Origin: Vandiemenella viatica
Lineage: Eukaryota; Arthropoda; Insecta; Orthoptera; Morabidae
Reading direction: 5' to 3'
DNA: 64,000 bases
Assembly: GCA_031002005.1 (NCBI GenBank)
Contig: JARYHS010009186.1
Coordinates: 258,135,199 to 258,199,198 of the forward strand
Position numbers and translations under genes: made by a program. Shown piece by piece: positions 2,705 to 62,165 of the stretch. The notes beneath the pieces are model-generated. The model was not told the origin of the DNA. It saw only the letters and a program-made list of their open reading frames with translations, and ran no database searches. The first letter of the stretch is position 1, and each line of letters begins with the position of its first letter.

Positions 2705-2867
2705 AAGAAAGTGTGTGGCCGGCACGAGGCCGGCAGGGAGAAACGAAGCTCAGTGCGGCAGACGGTGACAGCAGGCTGCACGTGCATATCAAGTGGGTGT
2801 GCAACATGCACACCCATGGCGCAAGTCCCCTCTGCACAATTCCCGCCTGTTTTTGGAAAGTCGGTTC
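2705..2867 (-). CDS. Serine-protease-homologue module D, exon 1 (His57 region, His replaced)
   Basis: The exon encodes 54 residues plus one base, starting EPTFQKQAGIVQRG. CTCSLLSPSAALSFVSPC aligns with B1 and C1, again with Pro for His57. The acceptor is CTGTTGCAG and the donor T/GTCAGT, phase 1. This is the first exon of a further module whose remaining exons would lie on the minus strand below position 1; nothing resembling exon 2 is visible between 1 and 2700. It shows that the array has at least four modules. Confidence 0.84.
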
Positions 2868-4179
2868 CTGCAACAGAAAAACCGCTGCAGTTGTTTAGAG
2901 TGTCTAAAAAAGAAATTAATCTTAAAATTTCCAGTTAAAATAAATGGAAGAACTGTTGCAATATTTCAATAATTATGGAGAAAAATTATTCATTATCTAT
3001 ACTCCATAAGGTTAGCTCATTTGATTACACAAAGCAAAATAGTAACAATGTTAAGGAAGACTGCCATACAATATGTGTCAAGTCACATCTGAGTAATCCA
3101 CTTCTATTATTCTCAGAGACTAAGAGAGGTAAATATTGTGAGTTACTGTGTTCGTATAGTTTTTGTTTACTTTAATGCACTGTTGTATCATATGGCAAAC
3201 TTACAACTTAATTGTGGTTTGAAGATAAGTCCTGCATGTTATATGCTGAATATGTGTGAACTAGCTAGCCGTTGGACTCACCCATTTAACGATCGGTTTT
3301 CCATTGCTTCAGAATGTATCACAGCTTACACATTCTGTCAATGCTGATTCACGCATAAAATCAAGTTGAGTCAGGGCTAAGATAAAAAAGAAGTCAAGTC
3401 AGGACAATGATCAAAAACACTACAAATGCAATCTCGCTGCATGGTTTGATCAAGTCAGGGGAAGACAGGTCGACCTGAAGATGGTACCGCAACCAATCGA
3501 CAACGGTCAAAGATTGGAGCACTTCTGATTTGATTTGGCCAGACTGCTAGTGAAATCACTCGGGAGTCAAGTCAAATCACCAAGACGATGAACACCTCAT
3601 AGAGCTTGTTCAGCATTTCAGTGAACTCTTGTACTCATTAAAAATATTCTGATTCATCTCACAAAATTATAAATGGATTAAAGTCATAAATAAAGTACTC
3701 AAATGAAGAAAGAAAGTACTTTATTATGCTACAAGGGTTATAAAACTGCACAATGTTCTACTAGCTTACAAGTGGGTCTGGATGAGTAATACACCTGTTG
3801 CCAGTAGTTCTTCCAGAGGCTTGCATCAGCAGTTACCACAGGAGAAAATGGGTCAAACCAAGAAAAATCACTGACAAGAATAAATTGCAGGGATATGAAA
3901 TTAAATTATGACCCTTATATCCTCTGACAAAATTAAACTCCACATTTGGTATTATTAAATATTTTGTTTTTGATTTATAGACGGTCATGTCGTGAAGATC
4001 TGAAAGGTGTATAATGTCAACTAGCAGTCAACTTTATGGACTCTCTGCTTACAACCAAAAAAAGCTGTGGTTTGGTTTGCCTTAACTAACTACATAGCAG
4101 TTGTTGAGTGATGTATCCATTAATACATTTTTGCAGTGCTGAAGTTTACAGAGCATCCATGGTTGGATTGTAGTCTAGT
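2868..4179. other. Intron between C5 and D1, no gene recognised
   Basis: No exon-like block or transposon protein is recognisable. The part at 3360-3640 is less AT-rich and has repeated GTCAAGTCAGG-like words, possibly a non-coding repeat, but I cannot assign it. Confidence 0.35.
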
Positions 4180-5220
4180 TTTGGCAAAAATCTTTTTTTT
4201 TTTATGTAAATTTTGTTTGGTGCTATTGCACCTTGGAATTAACTGGATAAATTATGCCACATTGTTTCTCCTTCTTCTTGGATGAATATTGCCACAGTTG
4301 TTTTGATTTCATTAGCAGAATTTAAAGGAAGTCCATTGCGTTGAGTAATGGGTATGTTATACTTCTACTAGCTGCAGACTTTGCCAGCTGGTCTGCTTTC
4401 TGATTTCCATTAATTCCCATGTGTGTTTTGACCACGTAAATACCGTCTGTTTACCCATTTCTTCTAACCTGTAACAATCTTGAGGATCCTGTATATCAGA
4501 TGGCACCTCTGTGCATTGCTGTTGGGGTGACGGAGGGACTTAGAAGTGCTTCTAGAGTTGGACAATGCAGCCATTTCAGCAGTGAAGATTGAAGCTGGGA
4601 CCCTGTGTTTTGAGAGAAGGCACTTTAACCACTCACAGACCAGTCCACTCGATGTTAGTGTAGAATGTAGATGGTCGTAATGTAATGCTTTGCAATTAAA
4701 TGGGAATCGATGTCGGTAGTAAGCCTCACTGGTTGGTCAGCGTTCAGCGTCTGAATGCCCATTAATAATAAGGAAGGAGGTAATTGTTTTCGATGAACTG
4801 TTATTCTATTCTGTTTTACCATCCTCTCTACTATTTTGAACAGAGGTGGCAATAGCACACTTGTTCTGAAGGCTGAAATCGTTGAAGGATTTTTCCAGGC
4901 TTTGGGATCAAAATTATTCTTATAGTTTTTAATCCCATGATTGGAAGTCTTTTATTCCATGTATTTTGGAAGTATGGACGTTTGATCAATCCATAATGCA
5001 CATTGTGCGTACCTGGAGCAGTATTCCTGTTTTTCTTGGATCTTATCTCATATTCCTCCATAGTATTGAAATAGGGTCATTGGAGTCGTCAATGTGTATT
5101 AAGTTGAAGACTGAATTGACAGAAGGATGCTTCAGCGTTTGTTTCATTATATTCGCTGATATATAAGCTGGTATTGTATGAGCTGTATTGGTTCCAAGTT
5201 TGTAGTTTTTTCTGTTTACC
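4180..5220 (-). mobile_element. Degenerate I/R1-type LINE fragment with RT and RNase H remnants
   Basis: Reading the minus strand: near 5000 the translation has NRNTAPGTHNVHYGLIK, which matches the start of a LINE reverse transcriptase (N.APG.D.I...LIK). Then LIPKPGK and SKIVERMVKQNRI follow in shifted frames. Further on, near 4440-4340, VVKTHMGINGNQKADQLAK matches the RNase H block of I/R1-type LINEs (VK.H.GI.GNE.AD.LAK). Frames are broken many times and the palm motif is not visible, so this is a non-functional relic. It abuts another LINE fragment at about 5220. Confidence 0.6.
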
Positions 5221-5412
5221 ATATATCAGTAAGTGACATGTTTCTGTTCTTATTCTTCTTCTTAAGTCACCTTCTCCTATTGGAGGTTGGCGGTCTGTGC
5301 ATGAAACTGCAGCATGGAAAACCTCTTCTGACATGCAATTGAACCATCTCTGAATGTCCTTCAGCCACGAATTCCTTCTCCTCCCAACAGATCTTTTCCC
5401 TTCAATGCAAAA
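5221..5412 (-). mobile_element. 3' fragment of another LINE (C-terminal region)
   Basis: The minus strand encodes IEGKRSVGRRRNSWLKDIQ and then an extension to a stop. The pattern G.R..GRRR.SWL.DI is the C-terminal tail of RTE-related LINE proteins. It is different from the RTE family at 16.6-19.6 kb. Upstream it stops abruptly where a plus-strand LINE starts at about 5413. Confidence 0.5.
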
Positions 5413-6945
5413 TCATTCTAGACCTCTTCTCAGATCACCATCTTGAACAGCTCGTAACTGAACCAACGCGATGCCTCAATGGTAACGAAAATATTTTAGA
5501 TATAGTTGTTACAAATAGGTCCGAACTATTCACGGATATTTCTACCACCGCAGGAATAAGTGATCACAAAGCTGTAATTGCTACAGTAAAACTAACAACC
5601 ACGCGCAGAAAGAGAAAAGAGAGGACCGTTTACAGATTCGAAAAGGCTTCAAAAGAGTGTTTTAGAGGGTATTTGAGGCATAATTACCACACCTTCTCAG
5701 TAGCAGGAGGCACCGTTGAAGAGAGGTGGCATTGATTCCTACATATACTCGGGGAAGGTATTAACTTGCATATACCGAAATGGACAATCAGGGAAGAGAA
5801 CGATCCCCCGTGGTACACATGGGAGGTTAAAAGGTTCCTCAAGAAGCAAAGGAAGATACATGCACCATCAAAAAGGACGATGCATCGGACTGATTTAGAT
5901 AAGTTAGAGGAGATAAGGGGACGTGTTAAGAATGCGATGCATGAGGCATTTAATAACTTCAGTGAAAATTCTCTCTCTAAGAGCCTCACAGAAAACCCTA
6001 AGAAATTTTGGTCGTATGTAAAAAAAAGTTAGTTGTAGTGGGAACAATAAGCCAGTTATAATTAAAGACGGACGGGAGGTTGAAGACAGCCGCGGCAAGG
6101 CTCCCTTATTTAACACCGAATTCAAAAATTCATTCACGCAAGAAAACATGGAAAACATACCCACTTTGCCACATCGTGTGGAATTAGAGATGGATCCGAT
6201 AGAAATTGATAGCGTAGGAATTGTAAAGCAATTAAAACTCCTGAAGTGGGGTAAAGTGCCGGGTCCCGATGGTATACCGGTAAGAGTATTTTCTGAATAC
6301 GCGGAGGATATTGAACCATTTCTGTCAGATATATTCCGTAAATCACTAGAAGAGAGAAAAGTACCTTCTAGCTGGAAAATAGCCCAGGTAATTCCCGTTT
6401 TTAAGAAAGGAGATCGGAGTGATCCTAGGAATTATCGACCCATATCTCTAACATTGGTCTGCAGCAGAATTCTGGAACATGTCATATGCTCGAACATAAT
6501 GAAGTTTCTAGATGAGAACGAGTTACTTACACCATGTCAACACGGATTTCGGAAGAAGAGATCGTGTGAAACACAATTGGCCCTATTTTCCCACGACATA
6601 ATGAAAGTTATCGATGCAGGTTCGCAAGTTGATGCAGTTTTTTTGGATTTTCAGAAAGCTTTTAATTCTGTGCCACACAACCGACTTTTAGCGAAGATTC
6701 GAGCTTACGGTATTTTGGCTCAGATTTGCGAGTGGATACGTGATTTTCTAACTGGTCGATCACAATATGTCGTTGTTGACGGGGAAGCCTCTTCTAAGAT
6801 AAATGTTACTTCGGGCGTTCCTCAAGGAAGTGTAATAGGTCCACTTCTTTTCTTAATATTTATAAATGATCTAGGTGAAAACGTCAAATGCTGGTAGTGA
6901 TTGTTTGCCGACGATGCGGTTATCTATAGGGAAATAAGGTGATTC
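5413..6945 (+). mobile_element. CR1/Jockey-type LINE, truncated, with endonuclease tail and reverse transcriptase
   Basis: From about 5434, EQLVTEPTRCLNGNENILD and ISDHKAVIA are the C-terminal part of the apurinic-type endonuclease. The longest open stretch (6148-6897) is a reverse transcriptase: [51 protein letters not shown] and [14 protein letters not shown]. Two stop codons (TAG TGA) follow VKCW, immediately before LFADDAVIY, the catalytic palm motif. Earlier stops and frameshifts interrupt the linker near 5730 and 6030. It is 5'-truncated and its 3' end is lost after the palm motif, so it is inactive. Confidence 0.8.
6148..6897 (+). pseudogene. LINE reverse transcriptase, terminated just before the FADD motif
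   Basis: This open stretch of 249 codons covers the fingers and first palm motifs of a LINE reverse transcriptase. It contains the first catalytic Asp ([10 protein letters not shown]) and the [13 protein letters not shown] block. It ends with TAG then TGA four codons before FADD, so the two catalytic Asp residues of the palm are not translated. Upstream codons continue the same frame only in part. Read as a decayed fragment of the element at 5413-6945. Confidence 0.75.
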
Positions 6946-8086: not shown

Positions 8087-8138
8087 TAGACTTTGCGTTA
8101 CATCAGGAAAGTCAGCCACATTCTTCTTGATCCAATTG
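8087..8138 (-). CDS. Serine-protease-homologue module C, exon 5 (C-terminal helix, reads on)
   Basis: The exon completes Arg and encodes NWIKKNVADFPDVTQSL, the closing helix of the S1 domain. The acceptor is GTTGCAG and the donor CTA/GTGAGT, phase 0, with no stop. It is separated from C4 by the shortest intron of the array (462 bp). The equivalent intron in B is 5,261 bp but shares sequence with this one near exon 4 (8345-8530 against 45665-45860), so the length difference comes from later insertions. The next exon found downstream is D1 at 2867. Confidence 0.83.
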
Positions 8139-8600
8139 CTGCAACAAATAGAGAATGCATTAGTAAAGTCACAGCACATAGAACATTTTAAAATGATTAG
8201 TAACTTCTTGTACAGATGCTGAAGGAGTTGGTTCAATATGCTGTTTCCGTTGGTTCTTTCAGTATTCAATTTCAGGGTATTTAATACCTTGAAAGCACTC
8301 GTGAATACACTAAGCCTTAGAAGGCCACTTGTTGTAATCAAATTAAATTAGTCTTTCGCTATCTGTTGGTTGGAATTGTATCAAGTGGTATGCTTCACAC
8401 ATATTTCAACGTTTTTCATTCCATAGTTTATGTGCTATCTCGGTAATAATTATGATGAGACTGTTGGCTGAAGATGCAAAGGTAAGATACATTTTTATCC
8501 AATAGAATTAGCTAGGTGACAGTGATAGTGATTCAGTATATAACACGGAGAATCACAAGTCTATAGCTTAAGTCATTCGTGAAACTGTGATGTTGCTCAC

Positions 8601-8746
8601 CGGAAGTGACCAGTGTGGAGAAACTTGAGGTTGGAAGTACAGCCCTCGCTGTCCTCCCAGGGCATGGCCACACCCAGCAGTCGCTGGACACCGTCGTCAT
8701 CTGCTCTGCAGAACAGTGGACCTCCCTCATCACCAGGACACGCCAC
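8601..8746 (-). CDS. Serine-protease-homologue module C, exon 4 (Ser195 region, Ser replaced by Glu)
   Basis: The exon encodes 48 residues plus two bases (acceptor ATTGAAG, donor CG/GTGAGC). VACPGDEGGPLFC again has Glu for the nucleophile Ser195; residue 189 is Val. GVAMPWEDSEGC is identical to module B, and HTGHFR joins to exon C5. One Asp is inserted relative to B (ADDDGV against EDDGV). The Ser-to-Glu change appears in both complete modules, so it was fixed before they duplicated or has been retained by selection. Confidence 0.88.
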
Positions 8747-12195: not shown

Positions 12196-15028
12196 CTAAC
12201 CATTTACCAGCTTTTCTCTAAAACTTGCAACAGTTTTGGTCCTTTTTATTTCATCAGGTAATTTGTTAAATATTTTTAAACCTTTGTGCAACACTGTTTT
12301 CTGTGCTTTACTACTTTTATTATAGGTCGAATGGAAATGATTTGCCTGCCTTGTCTTATAATTATGTACATCATTATTCTTTTGTACTAATCTAGTCACA
12401 TATCTTGGTAATAAACTACTTTCCAATCTATATACAAAAGTCAGTACATCTCTAATAATTTCCTTTTCAATATGTAAATATCCTAAGTCCTTAAGCATAT
12501 TACTGACATTTTCAGTTCGTCTTTATTTAGAACAGCCCTCATTCCCTTATTAAAAGTATTTTGCAGTTTCATAATTTCTCTTTTGTCTTGCCATGATTAA
12601 TACTGTGGAGCAGTATCTTATGTGAGGCAGCACAATTGCTTTAAACAATAGCTGTTTACCTGGTTTAGATAACACTTTTCTTAATTTTTATATTAAATTT
12701 ACCTTTTTTGCTACTTTTTTATTTATATAATCTACATGATCTATAAACTTAAGCTATTATCAATGACTACCACCAAGGTATTTATAATTTTGAACCCACT
12801 TAATTTTAGTTCCATTAATCACAACAGAATGCTGTGCTTCTGCCTGTTCCCTAAACAACTTTTTCCCCATCACCATACATGTTGTTTTTGCCACATTCAG
12901 ACTTAACAAATTTTTATTTAGCCATTCATTAACTAATTTTAACTCTTTATTATTACCTGTATCATTTTTTCTAGATTATTTCCATAATAATAAATTAGTG
13001 TGTCATCTGCAACATGTGAATTTTACAATACTTCAGTTTTTCTGCCAGATCATTTATATACAATATAAATAATAGGGGACCAAGTTTACTACCTTGGGGG
13101 ACTCCATGTTTCACTTCTCTTTCTTCTGATAGAACCTTATTGAATCTAACCCTCTGATACCTCTTTGTTAAATAATTTTCTAACCATGCATAAACCTCCC
13201 CAGTGATATTATACATATTTTTAATTTTTTTAACAGAAGTTCTCTGTTTGCAGTTTCAAATGCTCGCCTAAAGTCCAAAAATACTGCTATTACTCCCTCT
13301 CCCTTATCAATTGCCTCTAACCAATTTTCTACAACCAACTGAATTGCAGTCTCTGTGCTATGCTGTTCCCTAAATCCTGATTGGTATTCAGTTATGAGAT
13401 CATTTTCCTTTGTAAAACTTAGTAAAGTCTCATAAGCTATTGTTTCAATAAGTTTTTCTATCAATGGCAAATTATTTATTGGCCTAAGATCTACACACTT
13501 AGAACTACCCTTTACTTTAGGAACTGGTGCAATAATAGATGTTTTTAATTGCTTTGGCAACACTCTTTGTTTCAGTGATTCATTAATTATACTAGTTACT
13601 GTACTCCCTACCAAAGGCCATACCCTTCTTAATACCTCACTGCTTATTCCATCAGAACCCACGATATTTCTTAATTTTTGAACTATAACACCAATTTTTT
13701 CCTCCGTCACTTCGTGAAATTTGCTAAGGTTATTATCAATCTTGGGTGTCATTACATATTCATCTATTTTGGGGATATTTTCTATTAACTCCTCAATACT
13801 TTCAATATAGAAGTCATTTAATTTATTTGCTATTTCATTCGAATTATATACATATTCTTTCCCAAATATTACATATTTTAATGCCCTGTCCTTGGTTTTA
13901 TACAAAGTTTTTAAGCGTTTCCATAATTTTGTTGGTTCATTTTTATATCTTGTAAATTCTTCCTCATAAAACTGTTGTTTACTTTCCCTCCATAACTTTA
14001 CAAAATTATTCCTATATTGTTTATACTCATTCCAAGCCTCATCTCTATCTACAGTTGCTTCTTCAATTTCTTTTAATAAGAGAAACTTTTTATAAGCTAT
14101 ATCCCTTTGAATCCTGACTTCTTTGATTTTATTTGAAAACCAAGGACATGGTAAATTCCTCACCAATAAATCTGAATTTCTAGCTTCTTGTATACTCTGG
14201 ATTATGTTCTCATCTTTAATTCAACATATTTTTCCCCTACATGTGTATTATCACAAATTTTACTGTTACCTATTTTATCACTAATTATTTTTATTAGTTT
14301 CTTATAGTCAATCCTACCCTTTACTAGTACATTGCCTCTCCTTTAATATTATTTTTAAACATCCCTGTGATAATGATTAGATTATGATCTGATATTCTAG
14401 GTGTGTCCACTACCGTACATTTCAGATTTAAATTATCAGTAATTACAAGATCAATTAATGTTTCACTGTTGGGAGTGACCCTAGTCATTTTATTAACAAT
14501 TGTTTCATTCCAAGACCTGCTACTTGTGATACTAGTCTTCTAGTATAAAATTCATCTTTTTTTGACCAATCTATGTTAAAGTCCCCCCCTATAATACAAT
14601 CGTTTTGACTGATTTCCAGTATTTCCTCCATTACCATTGAGAACCAATCTATAAATATCCCTTTGCTACTACTAGGTGATCTATAAACACCCACAATTGT
14701 CCCCCATAAATGTGAATCCATGTACAACTTGATAGCTATCATCCACCATTCACCTTGTTTTTACATCAGTCCTTACCACCTCATACGAAAGGTTTTCAGT
14801 AACATATATGACTATTCCACCAGTGTGTTTGCTTTCTGAGTCACATCTTATATGATTATACCTTCTGATTTCAATTAATTTATCTACATCTAATTCAGAA
14901 ACATGTGATTCAACTACAATCATCACGCTTGGTGTGGTCTCATGAGCATATGTGGCAATCATGTCTCTTTTCGCAATAAGTCCACTTATATTTATTACTA
15001 CCATCTCCGCATTTTGGAGACCTTCCAC
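12196..15028 (-). pseudogene. LINE ORF2 (endonuclease and reverse transcriptase), frameshifted
   Basis: The pieces lie in order on the minus strand. Endonuclease: MVVINISGLIAKRD, VESHVSELD, GGIVIYV, then after a frameshift at about 14745, VGVYRSPSSS and IIGGDFNIDW. Reverse transcriptase (14166-13180): SDGISSEVLRRV, PVPKVKGSSKCVDLRPINN, YQSGFREQHSTETAIQ and AVFLDFRRAFET. Next piece (13216-12995): KHGVPQGSKLGPLLFILYINDL. The palm motif then appears as VADDTLIYYYG but only in another frame, so a frameshift lies just before it. The C-terminal part is at 12498-12196. It has several frameshifts, so it cannot make an active enzyme. Confidence 0.8.
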
Positions 15029-16560: not shown

Positions 16561-19500
16561 ACATTTTTTTTTTTTTTTGCTGTCGTCAGTCTTTAGACTG
16601 GTTTGATGCAATCCTCCATCCTTTCCTATCCTGTGCCAACCTCTTCATTTCTACATACCCCTTACAATCCACGTCCTCAATTATCTGCATCATATATTCT
16701 AATCTCTGTCTACCTCTACAGTTCTTACCTTCAACTGTTCCCTCCACTAACAAATTAACCAATCCAGCATGTCTCAAAATATGACCTAAAACCCTGTCTC
16801 TTCTTCCTGTAAGCTTCTTCCATAAACTTCTTTTCTCACCCATCAATTCTAAAACTCGTTCATTTCTTACTTTGTCTGTCCACCTAATTTTCATCCCAAG
16901 TAATAGAACTCACTCACTTCTCCTATTGCATCAGATCCTATTTTTATATTTAATCTGCTGATATTGGTATCATTTCTGCTACATTTCATCACTTTTGTTT
17001 TACTTTGATTTATATTCAGTCCAAAATCTTCCTTCAGTATTTTGTTGATGCCATTCAATAACTTCTCAATATCCTCAGCCCTCTCTGCTAATAAGACAAT
17101 GTCGTCAGCAAATCATAGCATACTGATTTTTTCTCCCTGAAAACTTATGCCACATGGAAATTTTTCTTTGACTTTCTTCATTGCTTCTTCTACATACAAG
17201 TTGAATATTAACGGGGATAGACTACAACCTTGTCTCACACCCTTTTTAACTGATGCATGTCTCTCGTGATTCTCTACTTTTATCACAGCCACTTGATTCT
17301 TATATAGCTTATAGAGGATTCTTCTATCTCGATACTTTAGACCTGATTTCTTTAAAATTTTGAACATCTTGTCCCACCTAACATTATCAAAAGCTTTTTC
17401 TAAATCAACAAATGCCATAAAAGTATCTTTGTTTTTCTTGATCCGCCCTTCAAGTATTAATCTTAAAGACAGAATTGCTTCCCTTGTACCACGATTTTTC
17501 CTAAACCCAAACTGATCTTCACCTACTATCTCTTCTACTACCCTTTCCATCCTTATGTATATTATTCTGGTCAGTAATTTTAAAGCATGTGATGTTAGAC
17601 TAATTGTGCGATAATTCTCACATTTGTCAGCTTGTGCTTTCTTTGGAAGTGTGAAGATGATATTTTTATTAAAATCAGTTGGAATTTCTCCTGTTTCATA
17701 ACTTTTTGATATCAGCTTGAATAATCTTTCGATTCCTTCCTCTCCTAGAGATTTAAGAAGTTCTGCAGGGATCTCATCAATTCCAACTGCCTTATTTGCT
17801 TTCAAGTCATTCAGAGCTTTATTAAATTCTGTCCTCAAAACAGGATCTCCTAAGTCATCCATGTCGACATCGCCTTCCTTTTCCAATACACTATTGTTCA
17901 AGTCCCCAACATACAGTTTCTCAATGTATTCCTTCCATCTGTTAGCTCTATCTTGTGACCTTAAAAGAGGTTTCCCATCGGCAGCTTTAATGTTCATACC
18001 TCTTTTCTTCATTTCTCCAAAATTCTTTTTGATCTTTCTATATGCAACATCTACTTTTCCTGCAACCATTTCCTTTTCTACTTCTTCACACTTTTCTTGT
18101 AGCCATTTTTCTTTTGCTATTTTGCATTTCCTATTTATTTGATTTCTAAATTGCCTGTACTGCTCTTTTCCTGCTTCATCCTGAGCATTTTTGTATCTTC
18201 TCCTCTGATCGATCAGCTGCAAAATTTCTTCTGTGATCCAAGGTTTTCGGGCAGCTTGTTCCCTAAAGCCTAAGGTTTCTTTGCCAGCTTTCATTATTTC
18301 GGTCTTTAATGCATTCCATTCGTCCTCTGTTGAGCTCCTTTCACAGTTAATTCTCAGACCTAAGTCTACCATTTCTGCAAATTTTTCTCTTGTGCTAGAT
18401 TGTTTCAGTTTATACACTTCCAGTCTGTTCTGCTTATACTGCTTCCTTATTTGCTTGAATTTCAGCCTGCACTTCATTACTATCAAATTATGGTCCGAGT
18501 CTATGTCTGCTCCCGGGTACGCTTTACAGTCTAGAACTTGATTCCTGAATCTCTGTTTGACCATGATATAATCTAGCTGATATCTGCCTGTATCCCCAGG
18601 ACGTTTCCAGGTGTATATTCTTTTTGCATGGTTCTTAAACAGTGTGTTCGCCACTACTAGCTTATATCTTTCACAAAATTCTAGCAGCCTGCTTCCTCGC
18701 TCATTTCTTTTTCCTAGACCAAAACTTCCTACAGTATTCCCCTCTTTTCCTTCTCCCACTATTGCATTCCAATCACCCATGATTATTAGATTTTCCTCCC
18801 CTTTCACATATTGGATTAATTCTTCAATTTTTGCGTATATTTTTTCTATTTCTTCGTCATCTTCCTGTGACGTTGGCATATACACTTGTACTAATGTGGT
18901 TGGGATGGGCTTAGTTTCTAACCTCATCAAAATAATCCTGTCAATAAATTGTTCATAGTAACTAACCCGTTTCCCTACTTTCTTGTTCATTACAAATCCT
19001 ACACCAGTGACTCCATTGACAGCTTGTGTGCTAATTATCCTGTGTTCCCCAGTCCAGAAATCCTGTGCGTCCTTCCATTTAATCTCACTAATCCCAACAA
19101 CATCTAACTTAAGTTGTTCCATCTCCCTTTTTAAGTTTTCTAACCTACCTGCCCTATTCAGACTTCTAACATTCCACGCTCCGACTCGTAGAATGTTTCT
19201 ATCCATTCTGATGACTCCTCCCTGAGCAGTCCCCACCCGGAGATCCGATTGGGGGACTATTTTACCTCCGGAATATTTTACCCAGGAAGAAGCCATCATG
19301 ATATATGTAATTTGAGAGGATTACATGTCCTCGGGATACCCTTTGGGTCTTTAATGCAGTGGTTTCCCGTTGCCTTCTGCATCCCCATGCCGTTGATCAT
19401 TTCTGATTCATCCGCCTTTAGGGGCCGTTTCCAACCCCAAGGGCAAGAGGGTGCCCTGAACCGTTCCCCGCTCTTCCGCCCTCCTTTCGGAGGCTGTAGG

Positions 19501-20511: not shown

Positions 20512-20677
20512 CGCTGCGCCCGCCTGCTGCCCGCACGTCAGCGCTCCGGTGCTGTCGTCGGCGGCAGCCTGGCAGGTCAACTTGACCACCGCGCACACCT
20601 TGTCTTCGAGCTGGTGGTCGATGCTCCCGAACCCGAAGCCGTATGCGTCGCACGACCTGCTCCAGCCCTTCGGCACA
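20512..20677 (-). CDS. Serine-protease-homologue module C, exon 3 (Cys136 to Cys182 region)
   Basis: The exon encodes 55 codons after the base that completes a split Gly codon. The acceptor is GTGTGCAG and the donor GCG/GTAAGC, phase 0. SRSCDAYGFGFGS matches SILCEMYGFGYGS of B and the '.GWG' region of S1 domains. DKVCAVVKLTC and ALTC carry the same four cysteines as B3. The acidic loop is shorter here (AAADDSTG). The exon is notably GC-rich compared with its AT-rich surroundings, as expected for a coding island in this genome. Confidence 0.86.
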
Positions 20678-26344: not shown

Positions 26345-26522
26345 CCGGCCTGGTCTGGAAGCAGTGCCCAACTGACGGTCGGTGTCTCGTGGAAGGTATC
26401 TTCGAGGATGACCAGCATGAGTCCAGCTGGGTGTGCCAAGAAATCAGAGACCTCCAACTTCTGTGTGTCGGCATCTATCTTGGAGACATCAGGGTACTGC
26501 ACGTTGCCCGCGTAGACATAAG
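26345..26522 (-). CDS. Serine-protease-homologue module C, exon 2 (Asp102 region, Asp replaced)
   Basis: This exon has the same length as B2 (178 nt) and the same phases (acceptor TTGGCGCAG, donor GG/GTAAGT). SYVYAGNVQYPD corresponds to SFVCAGNVQCRD of module B: both cysteines of B are tyrosines here. HPAGLMLVILED aligns with HP.Y..DIALL, again without the catalytic Asp. PTVSWALLPDQAG corresponds to the strand before the Cys136 region. The sequence immediately downstream (26230-26340) is homologous to 56900-57008 beside B2, including a near-identical run around the donor. Confidence 0.86.
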
Positions 26523-27327: not shown

Positions 27328-29946
27328 ATCCTCCTCATTTCGCTCGTGTCGTATACGACACATCAAATTCGTGAACTTTGTGTAGACACAGCTCCATTGT
27401 AACGCCAGCGACACAACACCACGTAGTTTCCCCATTGTCCGCCAGATGTCTACACCAATTCCTGCAAGTTTCAGCAGTCTGGTGTGTAAACTGACCAGTC
27501 TACACTTTGTTTCCTAAGTGCATGCAGCCAAAGGCGGACAAAATGATGTCACGATGTTGTAAGTACCGAATTAGGTTATCTTATTTACAATGTATATTAG
27601 AATTATGGGTATAATACTTGAGACTAATACTTCTAGTTAATATGTGACCACTTTAACTCCACAAAATAATATTTTTTCATGGTGCTACATAACAATTAGT
27701 ACACATGTGTCACTTACGACACAATGGAACTGAAGGTGTATTACAATGTACTTGTGAAAATATATCCCTGAAATTATTTGGTGATAGTATATCATCACTA
27801 TCAGGCTTATTAAGTATTAGTGACATTTATTTTATGACGTAATAATTTTAATTATTGATTTCTGCTTCGTTTAAATTAATTAAATAATTTTTTCCTTCCT
27901 TAGTGACAGAAGCACAGATTCTTGAAGAGTTGGAGCGATCTCTAGAGTTCGATGGAAATATCTTAGAAATCGAAGGTATATCCAGTGACGAAGAAGACAA
28001 TGAAGATAGTGTTTTAGCAACAGAAGTCGAAAGAGATGATTCGTGTGACTGTGATTCAGAAATGGTGACTGAAAAATATGTTAGACAGAAATCGAGAAGT
28101 GTCCCCCCTTGGCGCCATACAGATGCCTTTGAGCCTTTACCGCCTGCACCAGAATTTGAAGAAACTGTTTGGCAAGGGAAAGACTGTGACACAAAGGAAT
28201 ATTTTCTTAAATATATTCCTTACGATGTTTTTCAGTTACTCTCCTCTTGTAGCGACCAGTCATCTTTTGCATGCACAGGAAAACCACTAAATACTACTCC
28301 ACAAGAAGTTATGACATTTTTTGGAATATCAGTAAAGATGTCATATCTTGGCTACCCCAGATTAAATATGTATTGGGCATCTGGAACAAGAGTGACTGAA
28401 ATAGCAGAGAAAATGTCAAGGAGGCGGTTTTTTCCCATTAGAAGTGTACTGAAACTAATGTGAAATTGAAAGATAAATATTGGGAAATACGTCGTTTATT
28501 GAACACTGTCAGAGCAGGCTGTTTATTACATCCCAGGACACAGAAGGTGTTCATTGATGAACAGATAATTCCTTTCTGGGGCAAGGCAATGATGCAGCAA
28601 TACATTCGTGGAAAACCCAATCATGTGGCCTCAAAAATTTTGTTTGCACATCTCCAGACGGATTACCACTTGACTTCTTCATGTATGATGGGAAAGGTGA
28701 TACTATATTGGAGGGCTATGATCACTTGAACATTGGCGGAAAGGTGGTAATGAGACTGGCAACTACACTACCTGCAGGGTCTATAATTTATATGGACTGA
28801 TATTTCACATCAGTTGAGCTACTAGATTGTCTCCACTCAGACAGACGCTGTCAGGGTACAGGAACAATCCAGTCATGTAGAGTTCCAAGCGCGTGCCATC
28901 TCCAATCAGATTCACAAATGAAACAGGCAGGTCGGGGCTCAGTTGATCAATGTGTTCGCGGTGATGGACAGGTTGCCATTAATAAATGGCATGACAACAA
29001 ATTTGTTACTGTTGCCTCATCTGTTGAAGGAAAATTGCCTCTAGGACAGTGCAAGCGTTGGTCAAAGCAAGACAGACAATATGTCAGTCAGCAGGCCTCT
29101 TGCTGTAGAAACGTATAATGAAAACATGGGTGGGGTCGACATGTTGGACCGTGTCATTGCTGCATACAGACAAAGTGCAAGAACAAGAAAGTGGGCAGTG
29201 CGAATGATATTGCATCTCTTGTGCTGCTGCATGGATTGAGTACAGGAGAAACTGTTTCGCATTGAACACAAGAAGAAAAAATACGATGGACTATTTACAA
29301 TTTAAGGAGGAGGTATCAGAGTGGCTCCTTCATTCAGGAACTCATTCATTTGACATGCACAATAAATCTACAGAAGAAGATAAAGAAGTGGATACAGTAT
29401 CTAACACCTTGAAAAGAAAAATTTCTCCAGCATCAATCCCGAGTAAGGCCAAACATAAGAGCAGTGCAATTCACATGCCAGAGATCACAGGTGATGAAAA
29501 GACTCATCGCTGTAGACGGCCTGGGTTTAAAAGTGTGAGAGCATGAGTTTTCTACACAGAGTACAAGATTCATTTGTGCCTTGTTAAGGGAAGAAATTGT
29601 TTCCAAGATTTTCATATGCAATGATCTTGGTGAGAAAAATTCTTGAATGTCAGGATAATGTATTTTCAAAATGTTTACATATTAATATTGTTCAATTAAA
29701 TCATTTTTTGTATACTGTTTGCTGAATAAATGAATATAACAATATATGGAGTCACAAACATTCATTCCACAATCGTTTGCCTTCAGTACCGATGTGTCGT
29801 ATACAACACAGCAGTTTTTCAAAAAACTAAAAAACAAAAATTTGAAAAGTGAAAGATTTCCTTACTCATATAGACCACTACATTAAATTACACTCAATTT
29901 TTTTTAGTGAAAATTAAATTTATATTGTAGTGGATCTGAGGAGGAT
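27328..29946 (+). mobile_element. piggyBac-type DNA transposon inserted in a CR1 tail
   Basis: The interval between the two CR1 pieces starts with ATCCTCCTCA (27328-27337) and ends with its inverse TGAGGAGGAT (29937-29946). Near both ends is a GTGTCGTATAC(G/A)ACAC palindrome (27347-27362 and about 29795). Inside is a broken piggyBac transposase on the plus strand. piggyBac elements normally duplicate TTAA; the flanks here do not show TTAA, so either the ends have decayed or they belong to a different or nested element. Confidence 0.65.
27903..29275 (+). pseudogene. piggyBac transposase, frameshifted with stops
   Basis: The first part (27903-28463, 186 codons) has the acidic N-terminus (ISSDEEDNEDS), then the domain start EEVMTFFGIS-like (PQEVMTFFGISVKM) and LNMYWASGTRV. 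After a frameshift: FIDEQIIPFWGKAM (first catalytic Asp region) and RGKPNHVASKI. Near 28790, MD followed by a stop then YFTSVELLD marks the second Asp region (family: DN.FTS..L). At about 29115-29190, [20 protein letters not shown] is the third Asp region, highly characteristic of piggyBac. It has several frameshifts and stops and cannot be active. Confidence 0.85.
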
Positions 29947-32489: not shown

Positions 32490-32655
32490 ACTTGTCTGTG
32501 TGGTTGTCAGGAGGCCGACAGGGGATCTCCGAGCTGAGCGCGACGGACGGAGACAGCAGGCTGCACGTGCATACCACGTGAGTGTGCAGCATGCACACCG
32601 ACCTCGCGTCACCTCTCTCTACTACCACAGTCGACTCCTTGTAGTAAGTCACTTC
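32490..32655 (-). CDS. Serine-protease-homologue module C, exon 1 (His57 region, His replaced)
   Basis: The exon encodes 55 residues plus one base, beginning EVTYYKESTVVVERGD. The block CTCSLLSPSVALSSEIPC matches module B and the S1 pattern around Cys42-Cys58, with Pro in place of catalytic His57. The acceptor is CTGTTGCAG and the donor T/GTCAGT, phase 1. As in B and D there is no IVGG activation site. A possible N-glycosylation site (NHT) lies near the end of the exon. The reading frame joins to exon C2 to give SYVYAGN. It lies 7,918 bp downstream of exon B5. Confidence 0.86.
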
Positions 32656-35644: not shown

Positions 35645-36945
35645 ATATATGAGGGTGAGTCAAATGAAAACCTTAAACATTTTTTTAAATATTATTTATT
35701 GTGCAGAAGTGGTACAAAGCTGTATCACTTTTCAACATAATCTCACCCACGTTCAATGCAAATCCTCCAGCGCTTACAAAGTGCATAACTTCCTTTAGAA
35801 AAAAAATTCTTTTGGCAGTCTGCGCAACCAGTCATGCACCGCGTGGCGTACCTCTTCATCAGAACGGAACTTCTTTCCTCCCATTGCTTCTTTGAGTGGT
35901 CCAAACGTATGGAAATCACTTGGGGAAAGGTCTGGTGAGTATGGTGGATGAGGAAGACACTCAAAATGCAGGTCTGTGATTGTTGCAACTGTTGTAGGGG
36001 CAGTGTGGTGCCTTGCATTGTCATGTTGCAAAAGGACACCTGATGACAGCAATCCACGTCGCTTTGATTTGATTGCAGGCCGAAGATGATTTTTTTAGGA
36101 GATCTGTGTATGGTGCACTGGTGACAGTGGTCCCTCTAAGCATGTAATGCTCCAAAATGACGCCTTTTTCGTCCCAAAAGAGAGTCAGCATAACCTTCCC
36201 TGCTGTTGGTTCTGTTCGAAATTCCTTTGGTTTTGGTGACGAGGAATGGTGCCATTCCTTGCACGCTCTCTTCGCTTCTGGTTGGTGGAAGTGAACCCAG
36301 GTTTCGTCCCCAGTAACGATTCTTGCAAGGAAGGCATCACCTTCTCGTTCAAAGCGCCGCAGAAGTTCTTCACAAGCATCAACACGTTGTTATCTCATTT
36401 CAGGAGTCAGCTGCTGTGGCACCCATCTTGCAGACACTTTTTGAAACTGGAGCACATCATGCACAATGTGGTAGGCTGAACCATGACTAACCTTTAAACA
36501 TGCTGCAATGTCATTCAGTGTCACTTGGCGGTTTTCCATCACTATGGCTTCAACTGCTGCAATGTTCTATGGAGTCACAACTCGTTGTGCCTGACCTGGA
36601 TGAGGAGCATCTTCAACTGAAGTCACACCATTTGCGAACTTCCTACTCCATTTGTAGACTTGCTGCTGTGACAAACATGTATCACCGTACTGAACCTTCA
36701 TTCTTCGATGAATTTCAATAGGTCTCACACCTTCACTACTCAAAAACTGAATAACAGTATGCTGTTCTTCCCTGGTGCAAGTCTCAAGTGGGGCAGCCAT
36801 CTTTATACTGATACTGTGACGGTATTTGTGCATTTGCACTATGCTGCCACCTACAGGACATTCTGCACGCTGCTTGTAGCACGCTTACCAATTTACAGGA
36901 TAACGGCGCAAAATTTCGATTTTTTATTACAAATTTAAGGTAGAG
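35645..36945 (-). mobile_element. mariner transposon, full gene length but interrupted by stops
   Basis: The low-coordinate terminal repeat reads GAGGGTGAGTCAAATGAAAA and continues CCTTAAA from 35651. At the other end only ACCTTAAA remains (inverse at 36935-36941), so that terminal repeat has lost its outer 20 bp or so. The transposase on the minus strand spans about 36839-35700. It abuts a CR1-type LINE at about 36955. Confidence 0.8.
35700..36839 (-). pseudogene. mariner transposase (D,D34D), at least two stop codons
   Basis: Start: MAAPLETCTREEQHTVIQF, then the helix-turn-helix part RPIEIHRRMKVQYGD. A stop interrupts after VVTP (about 36568), followed in frame by NIAAVEAIVMENRQVTLND. Next, HIVHDVLQFQKVSARWVP is the WVP linker of mariners. 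A second stop occurs after LTPEMR. The catalytic residues are all present: RIVTGDETWVHF, LLQHDNARHHT and YSPDLSPSDFHTFG, with the spacing of D,D34D mariners. The C-terminus continues to about 35700. Without the two stops the frame would be almost complete; as it stands it is inactive. Confidence 0.82.
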
Positions 36946-40573: not shown

Positions 40574-40625
40574 CATTTTGTGTGCCTTATCGGGAGATTC
40601 GGCCATGTTCTCCTCAATCCATGGG
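40574..40625 (-). CDS. Serine-protease-homologue module B, exon 5 (C-terminal helix, reads on)
   Basis: After completing Arg (HYR), the exon encodes PWIEENMAESPDKAHKM, the closing helix of an S1 domain. The acceptor is GTTGCAG and the donor ATG/GTGAGT, phase 0. There is no stop codon; the next recognised exon downstream on the same strand is C1 (32655), also phase 0, so B and C can be read as one chain with almost no linker. The helix has Trp-Ile at the usual place. The short tail is not conserved among A, B and C, as expected for a linker. Confidence 0.83.
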
Positions 40626-45886: not shown

Positions 45887-46029
45887 CGGTAGTGACCAGT
45901 GTGTAGAAACTTGACGGTGTAGCTACAGCCCTCGCTGTCCTCCCAGGGCATGGCCACACCTAGCAGTCGCTGGACACCGTCGTCCTCCGTGCACATCAGC
46001 GGGCCTCCCTCGTCACCGGGACACGCCAT
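45887..46029 (-). CDS. Serine-protease-homologue module B, exon 4 (Ser195 region, Ser replaced by Glu)
   Basis: The exon encodes 47 residues plus two bases (acceptor GTTGAAG, donor CG/GTGAGT). MACPGDEGGPLMC aligns with the S1 signature C.GDSGGPL.C: Cys191 and Cys201 are kept, but the nucleophile Ser195 is Glu. Residue 189, which sets trypsin-like specificity, is Met. EGC fits Cys220, and HTGHYR leads into the C-terminal helix on exon 5. About 80% of positions match exon C4 by eye, and the block GVAMPWEDSEGC is identical, so this is the best-conserved part of the array. Intron sequence on both sides is also shared with module C. Confidence 0.88.
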
Positions 46030-53600: not shown

Positions 53601-53775
53601 CGGTTCTGCTTCTTGCTGCCAGCACTTCAGAGCTCCGGTGACATCGCCATCATCATCGTCTGCCTCCTTGCAGGTCACCCTTGTCACTGCGCACACCTTG
53701 TCATTGTCTTCGTGGCGGAAGCTCCCGTAACCGAAGCCATACATTTCACACAAAATGCTCCTGTCCTGTAGCACG
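53601..53775 (-). CDS. Serine-protease-homologue module B, exon 3 (Cys136 to Cys182 region)
   Basis: The exon encodes 58 codons after one base that completes a split Thr codon. The acceptor is GATGTGCAG and the donor CCG/GTGAGT, phase 0. SILCEMYGFGYGS corresponds to the strand around Cys136 and the conserved '.GWG' turn of S1 proteases. Later cysteines (VTC and LKCW) fit Cys168 and Cys182; one further Cys (KVCAV) is extra. An acidic stretch (EADDDDGDV) sits where S1 domains have a surface loop. Intron sequence upstream, 53785-54130, is clearly homologous to 20690-21015 beside exon C3, which supports duplication of a whole genomic block rather than of coding sequence alone. Confidence 0.86.
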
Positions 53776-56706: not shown

Positions 56707-57008
56707 TTGTGTAAACACTGTACTTTGATAGGTACTGTTGTTTAACCTTTCATGGCTAGTCAGATTAGTTCACATAGGCATGCTGTCCGTTCTCGACTTT
56801 CCTCCCAAATAAACTGTAAACCTGTATACTGTAACAAAATAGATTTTTCAAAGTATTGTTACAGATGAAATTCAGTGTGAATGAGAATACCTGTATTCAC
56901 TAAAAAAAACACCTAATTCTTTGATTGAAAAATGTGTGCTATCTACTATTAGTAAAAGCAGAAGAATAACAAAACCTTGCACAGTTTAGGGTGCAAGTCA
57001 AGACTTAC

Positions 57009-57186
57009 GTGGTCTCGATGGGCAGCAGTGCCCAACTGACGGTGGGTGTCATCTCGAAGCCGTCTCTGATGATGACTAGCATGAGTCCATCTGGGTGCAT
57101 CAGGTAGTCGGAGACTTTCGAAATCTGAGTGTCGTCATCTATGTCTGAGTCATCCCGGCATTGCACGTTGCCCGCACAGACAAACG
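57009..57186 (-). CDS. Serine-protease-homologue module B, exon 2 (Asp102 region, Asp replaced)
   Basis: The exon has 58 full codons with split codons at both ends (phase 1 in, phase 2 out; acceptor GATGCAG, donor AC/GTAAGT). SFVCAGNVQC corresponds to the S1 strand usually written like 'V.AG'. HPDGLMLVIIRDG matches the family block HP.Y..DIALLKL, with the catalytic Asp replaced by Met or Leu depending on alignment. PTVSWALLP matches the 'P.V.PICLP' strand. Two cysteines (VCAGNVQC) are specific to this module; module C has Tyr at both places. The acidic run DDSDIDDD is unusual. The intron just downstream shares obvious similarity with that beside exon C2. Confidence 0.86.
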
Positions 57187-58190: not shown

Positions 58191-58194
58191 TAGT

Positions 58195-58444
58195 TTGAGT
58201 GTTAAAATTTGCCCAAATCTATTTTTTCAGTTTTAATTACCTTCAGTGTTTGTAGTAAATTATTTATCGCCACAAATGGTAATTTATTTAAACCCCTGCC
58301 ACCCATGCCCACAAAATCAAAATTTCCCACTCTCTGATGCATGAAATCGAGTGCTAACTTGTGCCAATTATCATTTATTCCATTCCGTGTGCATTTCTTG
58401 GAATTTAATTTGCAATTGGTATACTGGTTGCAACATAGTGGCAC
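58195..58444 (-). mobile_element. CR1-like LINE C-terminal fragment
   Basis: The minus strand reads HKLALDFMHQRVGNFDFVGMG and then LNKLPFVAINN, matching the C-terminal CR1 domain at 31.9-32.3 kb. Only about 80 codons remain. Confidence 0.55.
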
Positions 58445-58927
58445 AGTAGAAACACCTACATTATTTATATAAAATTTATTGCTGGAAATGTAATTTAAAG
58501 GATAAATATTAAGGTTGGAAATAATAGTTATGCAGCCATTATTCCTCCAATGGAAGTGATGTCATGTAAAGAACTAATTGGTGACAATACAAACACGAGT
58601 GGAATATCTTCAAAATGTAAAAAGCATATATTGAAACAGCTCAGTCTTATTCTATCGCCAGTCAGAAAAAAACGATAGGAATGTCTGCCATTCCAACAAT
58701 TTTGGGTCTAGATCTGGTAGAACCATTCCCAAATTTTGGTCTAAATATGCACATTACATTGAGTGTTAACACTGGCCTTGAAACACTGCATAAAGACTCT
58801 GGCTTACTAACACAGATTTTTTTGATAGTAGAAAAAGTATTTTCAATTGTACCGATCAAGGAAGGGCCCCACCCGACATTTTCAGAAACTAACTATACAA
58901 TAGGCTTGGTTTGTCTCTGGTACTGAC
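58445..58927. other. Intron next to B1, no gene
   Basis: 58660-58930 is open on both strands without a recognised domain; I do not call it. Confidence 0.35.
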
Positions 58928-59090
58928 AGGGGTCTTTGCGGCTGTCAGGTGGCCTGCAGGGGCTGGCAGAGCTCAGCGCGGCAGTTGGAGACAGCAGGCT
59001 ACACGTGCATACCACGTGGGTGAGCAACATGCACACCGACGTCACAACGCCCCTGGGCACCACAGTCGCCTCTTTGTGGTAAGATGGTTC
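58928..59090 (-). CDS. Serine-protease-homologue module B, exon 1 (His57 region, His replaced)
   Basis: This exon encodes 54 residues plus one base, starting EPSYHKEATVV. It corresponds to the N-terminal half-barrel of an S1 protease. The segment CTCSLLSPTAALSSASPC aligns with the family pattern C.GSLLSP..ALTAAHC, so Cys42 and Cys58 are kept but His57 is Pro. The acceptor is CTGTTGCAG and the donor T/GTCAGT, phase 1; this donor is the one that keeps the next exon in frame. The usual IVGG activation sequence is absent: the module starts almost directly at the first strand after the previous module's helix. An extra Cys precedes the Cys42 region (VCML). Very similar exons lie at 32490-32655 and 2705-2867. 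Confidence 0.86.
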
Positions 59091-59970
59091 CTGCAACAGA
59101 GAAAAAACTGCATTATTTATCGTGATAAATTCCTTGTAGTTGGTGGCTTTTCCTGTCCCAGGCTGACTGGGTTAGATGATGTGTGCTCCAACAACCGGAA
59201 AGTTTTGATTGAATGTAATTGTACTACTTCCTGACATTAAACAGCTGATGCCCTGAGATCTCAATTGCATGTCCATCCAGATAGAGGACGGACCTTTTAC
59301 ACCATGCCACAATGTATTCCTGGAGCTCGGCAAATAAATTATCTAAATTTCCATTCTGATCACTCTTAAGGAGCTAACAATTGGAATCTTCTACTTACCT
59401 ACTTTATAAAGCATTAGGGGGTGGTTAGTAATATTTGTTTGGAGAAGGGAGCGGTAAGCTATATATCACAGTAAAATACATATCTGCTCTGGTTGGGCTA
59501 GTAATATGTGATGGGTACATAATGTGGATTGTTTGGATTGCAGGTTCTTCTTTATTACAAAATCACTACAGGCATCGCTATACTGTTCACATACACATTT
59601 ACCTATCACCACCAGCAAGTAATATAGTTTATTGACTTTCAATTGCAGCTACTCATCACGCTTTCATTATTTCGACAACACAGCACACTATCCACTGACA
59701 GATTAACTAAAATATGATTCTGTTCTTCTAGAAACACTAGCCTGTCATACCTAAAGAGCCCATTATCCAGTATTTCGATCGTCCATATAGAAACAAATGC
59801 AAGCTGAGGTTGGGAACTATGATATAAGTGATCATGCAAACTTAAATCCTTTCTGTCTTTCTCATTTCTAACGAAAAGGTGTTATTGCTCCCAATTAACT
59901 ACATGTAGTTCCACGAATTTATTTTGTAGCATTCAGTAACAAAAACACAGAAATTGTCACAATGTATGGC
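59091..59970. other. Intron between A5 and B1, no additional exon recognised
   Basis: I searched this stretch for a missing N-terminal exon (an IVGG-like start or a signal peptide with phase 0 borders) and found none. It is AT-rich. Confidence 0.4.
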
Positions 59971-59976
59971 AGAAAA

Positions 59977-61461
59977 CACTCTCGGGATTCTAGCCGCGTC
60001 AAATAAAAGTCGACTGGCGACGTTTCGAGAGCCGGCACTGCTCCCATTGTCAAGCCCTGCTTAACTAACTAAAACTGCTTAGCGGTAGTCTCTATATAGG
60101 GCTACCGGACGGGAGAGGAGGGGAACTCGCGCGGAGGGCGGGTCTGCTTGGTGACGTCATGTTCCGGTTGTTGTTATGCCCAAATATGGTCCGCTCCCGT
60201 GTGTTTCGTAATTGTCTAATAACTGGCCTCCATGTTTGACTTATGTTAAGTCCTTGATCCCGATTTATCACATTGTTTCTAACTCTGATTTCAATCGCCT
60301 CTTTCACGACACTATCCCAAAAATTATTAGCATGGCAGAGGCGTGTCGTCTTGTCAAAGCACGGCTCATGACAGTTTTCAAGGGCGTACTCTACTATAGC
60401 CGATTTTTCCTTCTGCCCCAACTTAAAGTATCTTATATGCTCTTTGCGCCTTTCATCGATCGTTCTCAAAGTCTGTCCTATATAGGAAGAGCCACACTCA
60501 CAAGGAATTTTATACACTCCAGGGGCCCGGAGATTTATACAATCTTTCGGGGTTCGTAATAACTGACGGATCTTAGGCGGGGGCCGAATGATGGAGCGGA
60601 TGCCTTGCTTGTTGAGCAGCCTGGCTATTTTCGATGTCACCGCTCCGCAGAAGGGCAAAAAAGGCACGTGGGGTTTCTCGTTCCCTGTCATCCGTTTTGT
60701 TTTTGTTTCTTCTTCCGATAATCGCATGTCGAATTTCTTTGGAACTATAACCATTGGCCCTAAACACGCGTTCTAAGTGTCGCAGCTCTTCTTGTAGATG
60801 CTGATTGTCGGATACCGCCTTTGCCCTGTGGACCAACGTATTCAGTACGCCACGCTTCTGAGATGGGTGACGAAAACTAAGGGCGTTTAGATAACGATCA
60901 GTGTGTGTGGGTTTTCTATACACACTGTGCCCCAACCTTCCGTTCGGCTTTCGACGTACCAATACATCCAGAAAAGGAAGTGCGCCATCTTTTTCGATTT
61001 CCATTGTGAAGTTGATATTGGGGTGAACGCCGTTGAGATAGTTCACAAATTCATATAGGGCTGGTATCCCATGAGGCCACACGAGGAATGTGTCGTCAAC
61101 AAATCTATAAAAACATTTTGGGATAGTGTCGTGAAAGAGGCGATTGAAATCAGAGTTAGTAACAATGTGATAAATCGGGATCAAGGACTTAACATAAGTC
61201 AAACATGGAGGCCAGTTATTAGACAATTACGAAACACACGGGAGCGGATCATATTTGAGGATAACAACAACCGGAACATGACGTCACCAAGCAGAACCGC
61301 CCTCCGCGCGAGTTCCCCTCCTCTCCCGTCCGGTAGCCCTATATAGAGACTACCGCTAGGCAGTTTTAGTTAGTTAAGCAGGGCTTGACAATGGGAGCAG
61401 TGCTGGCTCTCGAAACGTCGCCAGTCGACTTTTATTTGACGCGGCTAGAATCCCGAGAGTG
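59977..61461 (-). mobile_element. Penelope-like element with self-inverted 5' end
   Basis: The two arms, 59977-60324 and 61117-61461, are near-identical inverted copies of about 345 bp. They flank a minus-strand reverse transcriptase and GIY-YIG coding region. The right arm is an inverted copy of the element's own 3' end, including its last about 70 codons. The left arm ends with CGCGGCTAGAATCCCGAGAG when read on the minus strand. Inverted own-end copies are known for Penelope-like elements. It lies in the A5-B1 intron. Confidence 0.75.
60092..61117 (-). pseudogene. Penelope-like reverse transcriptase and GIY-YIG nuclease, two overlapping frames
   Basis: From about 61117 the frame reads FYRFVDDTFLVWPHG (catalytic Asp pair of the RT palm), FTMEIEKDGALPFLDVLV, YRKPTHTDRYLNALS and ERVFRANGYSSKEIRHAI. 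After a frame change near 60700 it continues FLPFCGAVTSKIARLLNKQG and CINLRAPGVYKIPCECGSS, then SYIGQTLRTIDERRKEHI, a GIY-YIG endonuclease with the C...C lead. It ends SPPLPSGSPI and a stop at 60092. The front half of the RT is absent: the frame there runs into the inverted arm. Not functional. Confidence 0.8.
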
Positions 61462-62113
61462 TTTTTTACAGTGCTGCCGCCGCGAAAACGTTCACAGTTA
61501 TTTGTCACAATGTATGTTTCCTATCATTCAAAATACTTGACAATAAATTTCAAACTGTTATAACATTCATAAATTCCATTATTTCTAGCTAAGGATTCTT
61601 GCCTTAGCTCCATACATCCCCGCTGCGTACCGACGACTGACTAATTGTTGATCGCTGCTGAGCACTGTTTTGCCAGCTAAAATCCCCGAGCTCACATTCA
61701 CTTGTTGTTAACAATGAGGTCTCCAGTAAAGCAAATAATACACCACTGTTAATTTTCTGAGCAATAATCTATAAAAGACAAAAAAGTTAATTAAAATATG
61801 AAGAAACTAAATTAATAGGGGCAGGGAGCAGCCTGATAGTATGGTACAACTTGTCACTGAAGGTACAACAGTATCAGATTGAAATCTTGAAACAGTTACA
61901 ATGGATAATCCTTACCTCAGTTTCCTCGATTAGAGGAGATTCCCACAGGCAGAATTACACAAAGAATAATACATAGTTGAGGCAGATAGAAACTTAATCA
62001 CTTTCCAATTAAGTTATATTTAATGTAGTGCCACTGACAGTCAATGCTTCCAATCACTTCTATAAAAAAAATTCCTGGTGAAGGAATTAAAACTAAAAAG
62101 ATGTACTACTCAC
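61462..62113. other. Intron downstream of A5, partly homologous to module C
   Basis: 61850-61890 resembles 7895-7930. No exon recognised. Confidence 0.4.
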
Positions 62114-62165
62114 CGGTCTGTCTGTTTTGTAGGGAATGTCAGGCTTGTTCTGCTCGATCCATGTG
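62114..62165 (-). CDS. Serine-protease-homologue module A, exon 5 (C-terminal helix)
   Basis: The exon completes a split Arg codon and then encodes 17 residues beginning TWIEQN, the C-terminal helix that closes an S1 protease domain (family pattern: HYR.WI..N). The acceptor is GTTGCAG and the donor is CCG followed by GTGAGT, so it ends in phase 0. A normal S1 protease stops a few residues after this helix; here the frame stays open to the splice site. The earlier exons of this module would lie beyond position 64000. It matches the exons at 40574-40625 and 8087-8138 in length (52 nt), phase and position. The neighbouring intron also resembles module C: both carry a close match to CAGATTGAAAT about 200-250 bp downstream on the minus strand. 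Confidence 0.82.

Follow-up and report, generated by a model that had tools for sequence, protein, structure and literature searches.

Here we describe a chain of 25 modules of the S1 serine protease type in the orthopteran insect Vandiemenella viatica, located on contig JARYHS010009186.1 of its 3.72 Gb assembly. Part of this chain lies in a stretch of 64,000 nucleotides (positions 258135199-258199198 of the contig, hereafter the window), for which a first-pass annotation had proposed a long row of S1-like modules that have lost catalysis, are joined almost without linkers and probably make up one giant gene. Sequence tests of the catalytic triad, the splice donors, the gaps between modules and the Pfam matches all support this proposal. 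The modules very probably belong to one single gene. Taking everything together, we regard it as probable that about 25 dead S1 modules are encoded here as one secreted protein, which may be a multivalent pseudoprotease scaffold.

An open exon chain with one end

Each module is divided over five exons (E1-E5), and we followed these continuously over 264 kb, that is, the window together with 200 kb upstream of it. In this region 58 exons join into a chain of 8,400 nt and 2,799 codons that contains no stop, crosses 12 inter-module junctions and includes 11 complete modules of 228-237 residues each. More importantly, all 12 internal closing exons read (E5 of modules 9-20) run into an exact gtgagt donor in phase 0; 11 of them are 52 nt long and one is 43 nt. 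In the terminal E5, the homologous donor position is lost and the exon reads through to a TAG stop (EWIKTNVHDLPEYKPRLTTEVQ followed by the stop), which is the case in both copies of a duplicated tail. An ATTAAA is found 289 nt past the terminal stop. The donor in all internal E5 exons read, as opposed to the stop in the last one, is our main evidence for one gene with one end. One donor of another exon type deviates: exon 4 of module m92568 (module 17) has a GC donor (CCG followed by GCAAGT) at extended coordinate 76618, genome position 258211816, while the other copies read have GT. Extended coordinates carry the window numbering past 64000, and the genome position is the coordinate plus 258135198.

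The phases of the five exons in each module are 0-1 (E1), 1-2 (E2), 2-0 (E3), 0-2 (E4) and 2-0 (E5), which renders E1-E3, E4-E5 and the whole module (0-0) frame-neutral units. These symmetric modules might serve as splicing cassettes, whose skipping would yield many chain lengths. The symmetry is, however, expected from tandem duplication alone, and we consider such a use, which is compatible with the single-gene explanation, conceivable but unlikely.

The tail of the array is duplicated with 98.4% identity over 6.6 kb. The two copies lie about 73 kb apart (257.953-257.985 versus 258.026-258.055 Mb), each with the terminal stop, and E1 of module 26, in the downstream copy, went undetected in the 10 kb read. 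The second copy may have arisen by true tandem duplication, or it may be a haplotype left uncollapsed in the assembly. The latter possibility, together with one gap of 1,000 N, would fit the idea that the whole array is an assembly artefact or else a collection of decaying pseudogenes. Such decay is opposed by the lack of stops in the chain and by the ratio of nonsynonymous to synonymous divergence (dN/dS, Nei-Gojobori method, NG86), which has a median of 0.42 (range 0.24-0.68) and lies below 1 in all 55 module pairs. Additionally, three recent copies differ more in their introns (6.4-9.1%) than in their exons (4.3-7.0%). In an alignment of 9 of the 11 complete modules (alignment A1), the identity of eight modules to the first row is 57-81%, too low for assembly copies. 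We judge a pseudogene array or an artefact to be highly improbable. In a tree of the 11 modules, five adjacent ones (m254049 to m146288, modules 10-14) cluster with a support of 100/99; 6 of the 8 inner forks are too weak to be read, and the tree gives only a small part of the duplication history.

The array in the genome and in the window

The whole genome was searched twice, each time with one module as the query, giving 77 matches (88 of 88 candidates scored) and 123 matches (137 of 137 scored). The query of the first search held a misplaced exon-2 piece and lacked the true exon 2, while its E1, E3, E4 and E5 parts were valid; the second search was the repetition with the correct module. 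All but 2 of the 77 and 15 of the 123 matches fall on one strand of the window's contig, between 257.957 and 258.614 Mb. The matches outside this locus are weak, with a best E of 0.195 in the first search and 0.005 in the second. Because the same four long exon types appear in repeated order at this locus and match only weakly elsewhere, the twelve exons of the window are not a product of chance.

From both searches and one exon taken from the reading of the locus, we compiled by hand a table of 106 exon matches in 27 rows. It gives 25 modules arranged head to tail on the minus strand of one contig, in the order E1-E2-E3-E4, over 587 kb, with their matches between 258613721 and 258030159, and rows 26 and 27 are the partly duplicated tail that follows module 25. 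E3 of module 25 remained unmatched in the genome searches. E4 of modules 25 and 27 appeared as weak single matches (E 0.56 and 0.79), which improved to about 1e-6 once those loci were read, and E2 of module 23 is a weak match (E 0.09) from the genome search only. The annotation had spoken of at least four modules and had suggested counting them in the neighbouring sequence. The repeated modules are indeed real; the number was an undercount, since genome searches and reading beyond the window raise it to 25 plus the duplicated tail. The modules called A, B, C and D in the window are modules 18 to 21 of the array, and their exons are the following.

62114-62165, minus strand: A5, closing exon of module 18 (WI helix), 52 nt, phase 2 to 0, donor gtgagt
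58928-59090, minus strand: B1, opening exon of module 19, 163 nt, phase 0 to 1, Pro at the H57 position
57009-57186, minus strand: B2, exon 2 of module 19, 178 nt, phase 1 to 2, HPDGLMLV with Met at the D102 position
53601-53775, minus strand: B3, exon 3 of module 19, 175 nt, phase 2 to 0, GFGYGS
45887-46029, minus strand: B4, exon 4 of module 19, 143 nt, phase 0 to 2, GDEGGPL in place of GDSGGPL
40574-40625, minus strand: B5, closing exon of module 19, 52 nt, donor gtgagt
32490-32655, minus strand: C1, opening exon of module 20, 166 nt
26345-26522, minus strand: C2, exon 2 of module 20, 178 nt
20512-20677, minus strand: C3, exon 3 of module 20, 166 nt
8601-8746, minus strand: C4, exon 4 of module 20, 146 nt, GDEGGPL
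8087-8138, minus strand: C5, closing exon of module 20, 52 nt, donor gtgagt
2705-2867, minus strand: D1, opening exon of module 21, 163 nt, the module running on beyond the window

All twelve exons announced by the annotation were recovered with valid splice borders on the minus strand, with the outer ends exactly at 62165 and 2705. The two complete modules are open throughout and have the expected 237 (B) and 236 (C) codons when spliced. A5, B5 and C5 all read into gtgagt without a stop, and B1, C1 and D1 all open in phase 0, just as described. The remainder of module 21 is represented by E2, E3 and E4 matches at genome positions 258129085, 258124504 and 258122268.

The true exon 2, at 57186-57009 in B and 26522-26345 in C, was located by comparing module with module. 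An alternative exon 2 next to exon 3 (54031-53907 and 20918-20794) was ruled out, as the equivalent stretch contains stops in other modules. This stretch, on the 5' side of exon 3, is conserved and partly open and resembles an exon in B and C; it may be a decayed intron or a lost exon.

Gaps between modules and the search for start exons

Alternatively, each of the roughly 25 modules could be a gene of its own that encodes a secreted serine protease homolog (SPH), with an unseen signal exon before E1 and an unseen 3' exon after E5, much as in the family of inactive protease genes of the scabies mite. Tandem arrays of single S1 genes are common, and phase 0 at E1 and E5 would fit separate flanking exons just as well. 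Separate genes should, however, place a 3' end, a promoter and a signal exon into each gap between an E5 and the following E1. The 12 gaps read measure 456, 1286, 1298, 2200, 2434, 3023, 3912, 4914, 5219, 7918, 10483 and 54567 bp. A strict scan for start exons, which had to open with an ATG and a hydrophobic stretch and to close at a consensus donor in phase 0, gave none in 11 of these 12 gaps. The 456-bp gap, at extended coordinates 73968-73511, contains no hydrophobic ATG exon even when any GT donor and a lower hydropathy limit are allowed, and it is free of AATAAA and ATTAAA; one TATA-like word is present. Such exons are visible at ordinary S1 loci of this genome: in a similar scan open to any phase, first exons with a signal and IVGG were found at 6 of 8 loci (four by the scan and two on the other strand with IVGG required, leaving two loci without such an exon).

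Several observations weigh against the single gene. The count of internal E5 donors covers 12 modules, 9-20. The two candidate start exons that the strict scan did return lie in the 54-kb gap that separates modules 13 and 14, which also holds the 1,000-N assembly gap. A laxer donor rule gives hydrophobic ATG open reading frames (ORFs) in 6 of the 12 gaps, 17 in total, of which 11 are in the 54-kb gap; the strongest one outside this gap lies at extended coordinate 136581. Over the 264 kb the same rule yields 31 such ORFs on the gene strand versus 20 on the opposite one. With any GT donor and a lower hydropathy limit, they appear in 4 of the 5 short gaps examined. A hidden start exon in some gaps is possible on these sequences. 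The control is narrow, because the six signal exons it yielded are one exon in near-identical copies. Finally, the candidate signal exon of the whole chain (MRQTIIFRVILFSIITYLGYTTQSNTKQKKGE, genome 258633892-258633797, 20 kb upstream of module 1) is the best one and plausible, yet no better than background: it is one of 2 in 30 kb, against 8 such ORFs on one strand of the 264 kb and 12 on the other, a rate of about 0.3-0.45 per 10 kb.

Separate genes nevertheless have to account for an exact donor in every internal E5 read and a stop in the last one, for the 456-bp gap without a start exon, and for the lack of anything better than E 0.005 outside the locus. We consider them quite unlikely.

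A retained S1 fold without catalysis and activation

The three modules given to Pfam match the Trypsin family (PF00089) with 26.4, 29.8 and 30.0 bits, weak scores that are all above the curated cut-off of 20.6, so that the domain search proposed in the annotation came out in its favour. In all three modules the alignment begins at position 24-25 of the 220 profile positions, which shows that the activation N-terminus is absent. Indeed, IVGG occurs in none of the 11 complete modules, in agreement with the annotation. When a profile of 9 of the 11 modules was compared with solved structures, the best match was the beta chain of hepatocyte growth factor (HGF), at E 4.8e-12, and active proteases come after it among the 66 structure sequences at E <= 1e-5.

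The triad positions were assigned through the alignment with the HGF beta chain. The His57 position is occupied by Pro in 12 of the 13 E1 exons counted and by Tyr in module 1, the Asp102 position by Met in all 12 E2 exons counted, and the Ser195 position by Glu in 12 of 13 E4 exons and by Gln in one. The E2 of the terminal module, which stands outside this count, reads HDVSLVF, by eye with Ser at the Asp position. By sequence, then, the His57-Asp102-Ser195 triad of an active S1 peptidase is replaced in the exons counted, and the modules are serine protease homologs in the sense of the definition, namely S1 domains that have lost their triad residues.

The cysteines for the disulfides 42-58, 136-201, 168-182 and 191-220 all stand where the alignment places them in 10 of the 11 complete modules; their numbering and presumed pairing follow the HGF alignment and the usual S1 numbering. 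In the remaining one, m113735 (module 16, extended 113735-96481), which carries GDQGGPL, the cysteines aligned to C136 and C201 are both lost, and this joint loss supports the assumed disulfide.

These data also bear on a further explanation, in which the array encodes one giant polyprotein that is cleaved between its modules into single dead S1 domains. The module boundaries do coincide with domain ends, and the polypeptidases of Tenebrio are, in the passages covered of the survey, predicted to have an activation site before each S1 domain (PMC11172050). Here, the Pfam matches of three modules give no sign of an IVGG-type activation site, no dibasic pair lies across any of the 12 junctions read, and the junction sequences are not conserved. 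The two latter points speak against processing into single domains, and we regard a cleaved polyprotein as rather unlikely. A motif KGDAR or RGDAR recurs near the start of exon 1 in many modules.

Transposon remains in the introns

The introns of the window contain transposon remains. Of nine ORFs scanned, five have a Pfam match (reverse transcriptase, endonuclease, DDE_Tnp_1_7 and the mariner-type Transposase_1), and the ORF at 13180-14220 scores just under the cut-off of its own family.

17113-19320, minus strand: transposon ORF with Pfam match
13180-14220, minus strand: transposon ORF with Pfam match just under the cut-off
6022-6897, plus strand: transposon ORF with Pfam match
27888-28463, plus strand: transposon ORF with Pfam match
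36021-36389, minus strand: transposon ORF with Pfam match

Comparison with known systems

A typical SPH has its own signal peptide and either a single domain or a clip domain in addition. The present modules share with those of insects the S1 signature and the broken triad; unlike them, the modules read here show neither a start nor a stop of their own. HGF has a single S1 domain behind kringles that is activated by cleavage, and its beta chain works by binding. The alignment shows that the His and Ser positions are replaced in the S1 domain here as in the HGF beta chain; in contrast to HGF, we see a chain of modules and no cleavage site. The inactivated protease paralogues of the scabies mite are separate genes rather than one chain. 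The array resembles them, as they are reported, in being a large lineage-specific family of dead S1 domains (PMC4031079, PMC7815109).

The closest comparison is with the insect polypeptidases and human polyserases, in which several S1 domains, some or all of them dead, are predicted in one polypeptide, as they are here from a reading frame that stays open over 12 junctions of the genomic sequence. The survey of Tenebrio describes, in the passages covered, seven polypeptidase transcripts, whose S1 domains number two or three and come with Sushi or LDL regions; six of the polypeptidases are secreted and have a predicted activation site before each domain, and it cites a few similar proteins in other insects (PMC11172050). 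Compared with these polypeptidases as described there, the array has 25 modules instead of two or three, shows no activation site at the 12 junctions read, and closes its exon chain without other domains such as Sushi or LDL. The survey of Ostrinia lists multidomain types carrying LDLA, Fz, CCP, CUB, SR and Gd domains, and the passages covered describe no long S1 chain (PMC10036332). We file the array as a variant of the poly-S1 and SPH kind, different in its number of modules, in showing no activation sites at the junctions read, in having no other domain within its exon chain, and in being dead in the modules read.

A search of the open-licence literature for a long chain of dead S1 domains gave none described in a title or in the opening of an abstract. 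A protein database search with alignment A1 gave 6,131 candidates, none of them at E <= 0.001, and among viral contigs 26 stretches fit a pattern, none encoding a relative. As these collections are taken to be poor in animal sequence, the null searches are no proof of a unique family. On the contig of the array, Pfam Trypsin matches also form dense clusters at 232.5-233.1 Mb and 245.1-245.5 Mb.

Proposed giant pseudoprotease and its meaning

According to the explanation that we favour, one pre-mRNA would be spliced directly from the E5 of each module to the E1 of the next, both in phase 0, to give a protein of roughly 5,800 residues (25 x 233), with an expected size above 600 kDa if it stays unprocessed. 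The kept S1 cysteines and the candidate signal exon upstream of module 1 point to an entry into the secretory pathway, and we think it likely that the protein is secreted. The C-terminal helix of each module would lead into the N-terminus of the next. S1 activation, the insertion of a free N-terminus, would be impossible because this N-terminus is fused to the preceding module, and the modules may hence fold as pseudoproteases held in a zymogen-like state. The retained fold signature and cysteines would suit a bead, and about 25 beads could present many copies of one binding face. Such a chain might function as a multivalent scaffold or decoy in the extracellular matrix, in secretion or in a protease cascade, binding instead of cutting; by analogy to the systems above, we propose this role only tentatively.

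Giant proteins are commonly built from repeats of small domains, for example Ig, FN3 or EGF. In this array the repeated bead seems to be an entire enzyme fold, about 233 residues long, that has lost catalysis and activation and kept most of its core cysteines. We lean towards the view that the array encodes a titin-like giant, with about 125 coding exons over about 600 kb, 25 linker-poor dead S1 domains and frame-neutral modules that could be skipped to vary its length, and that it may stand for a new class of structural or multivalent extracellular proteins. It also illustrates how giant genes can hide in large, repeat-rich genomes, where introns are filled with transposons and annotation may fragment them. 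The array provides a concrete gene for the study of multivalent pseudoproteases. If our explanation is true, the S1 fold, which is best known as an enzyme, can act as the building block of a polymer.

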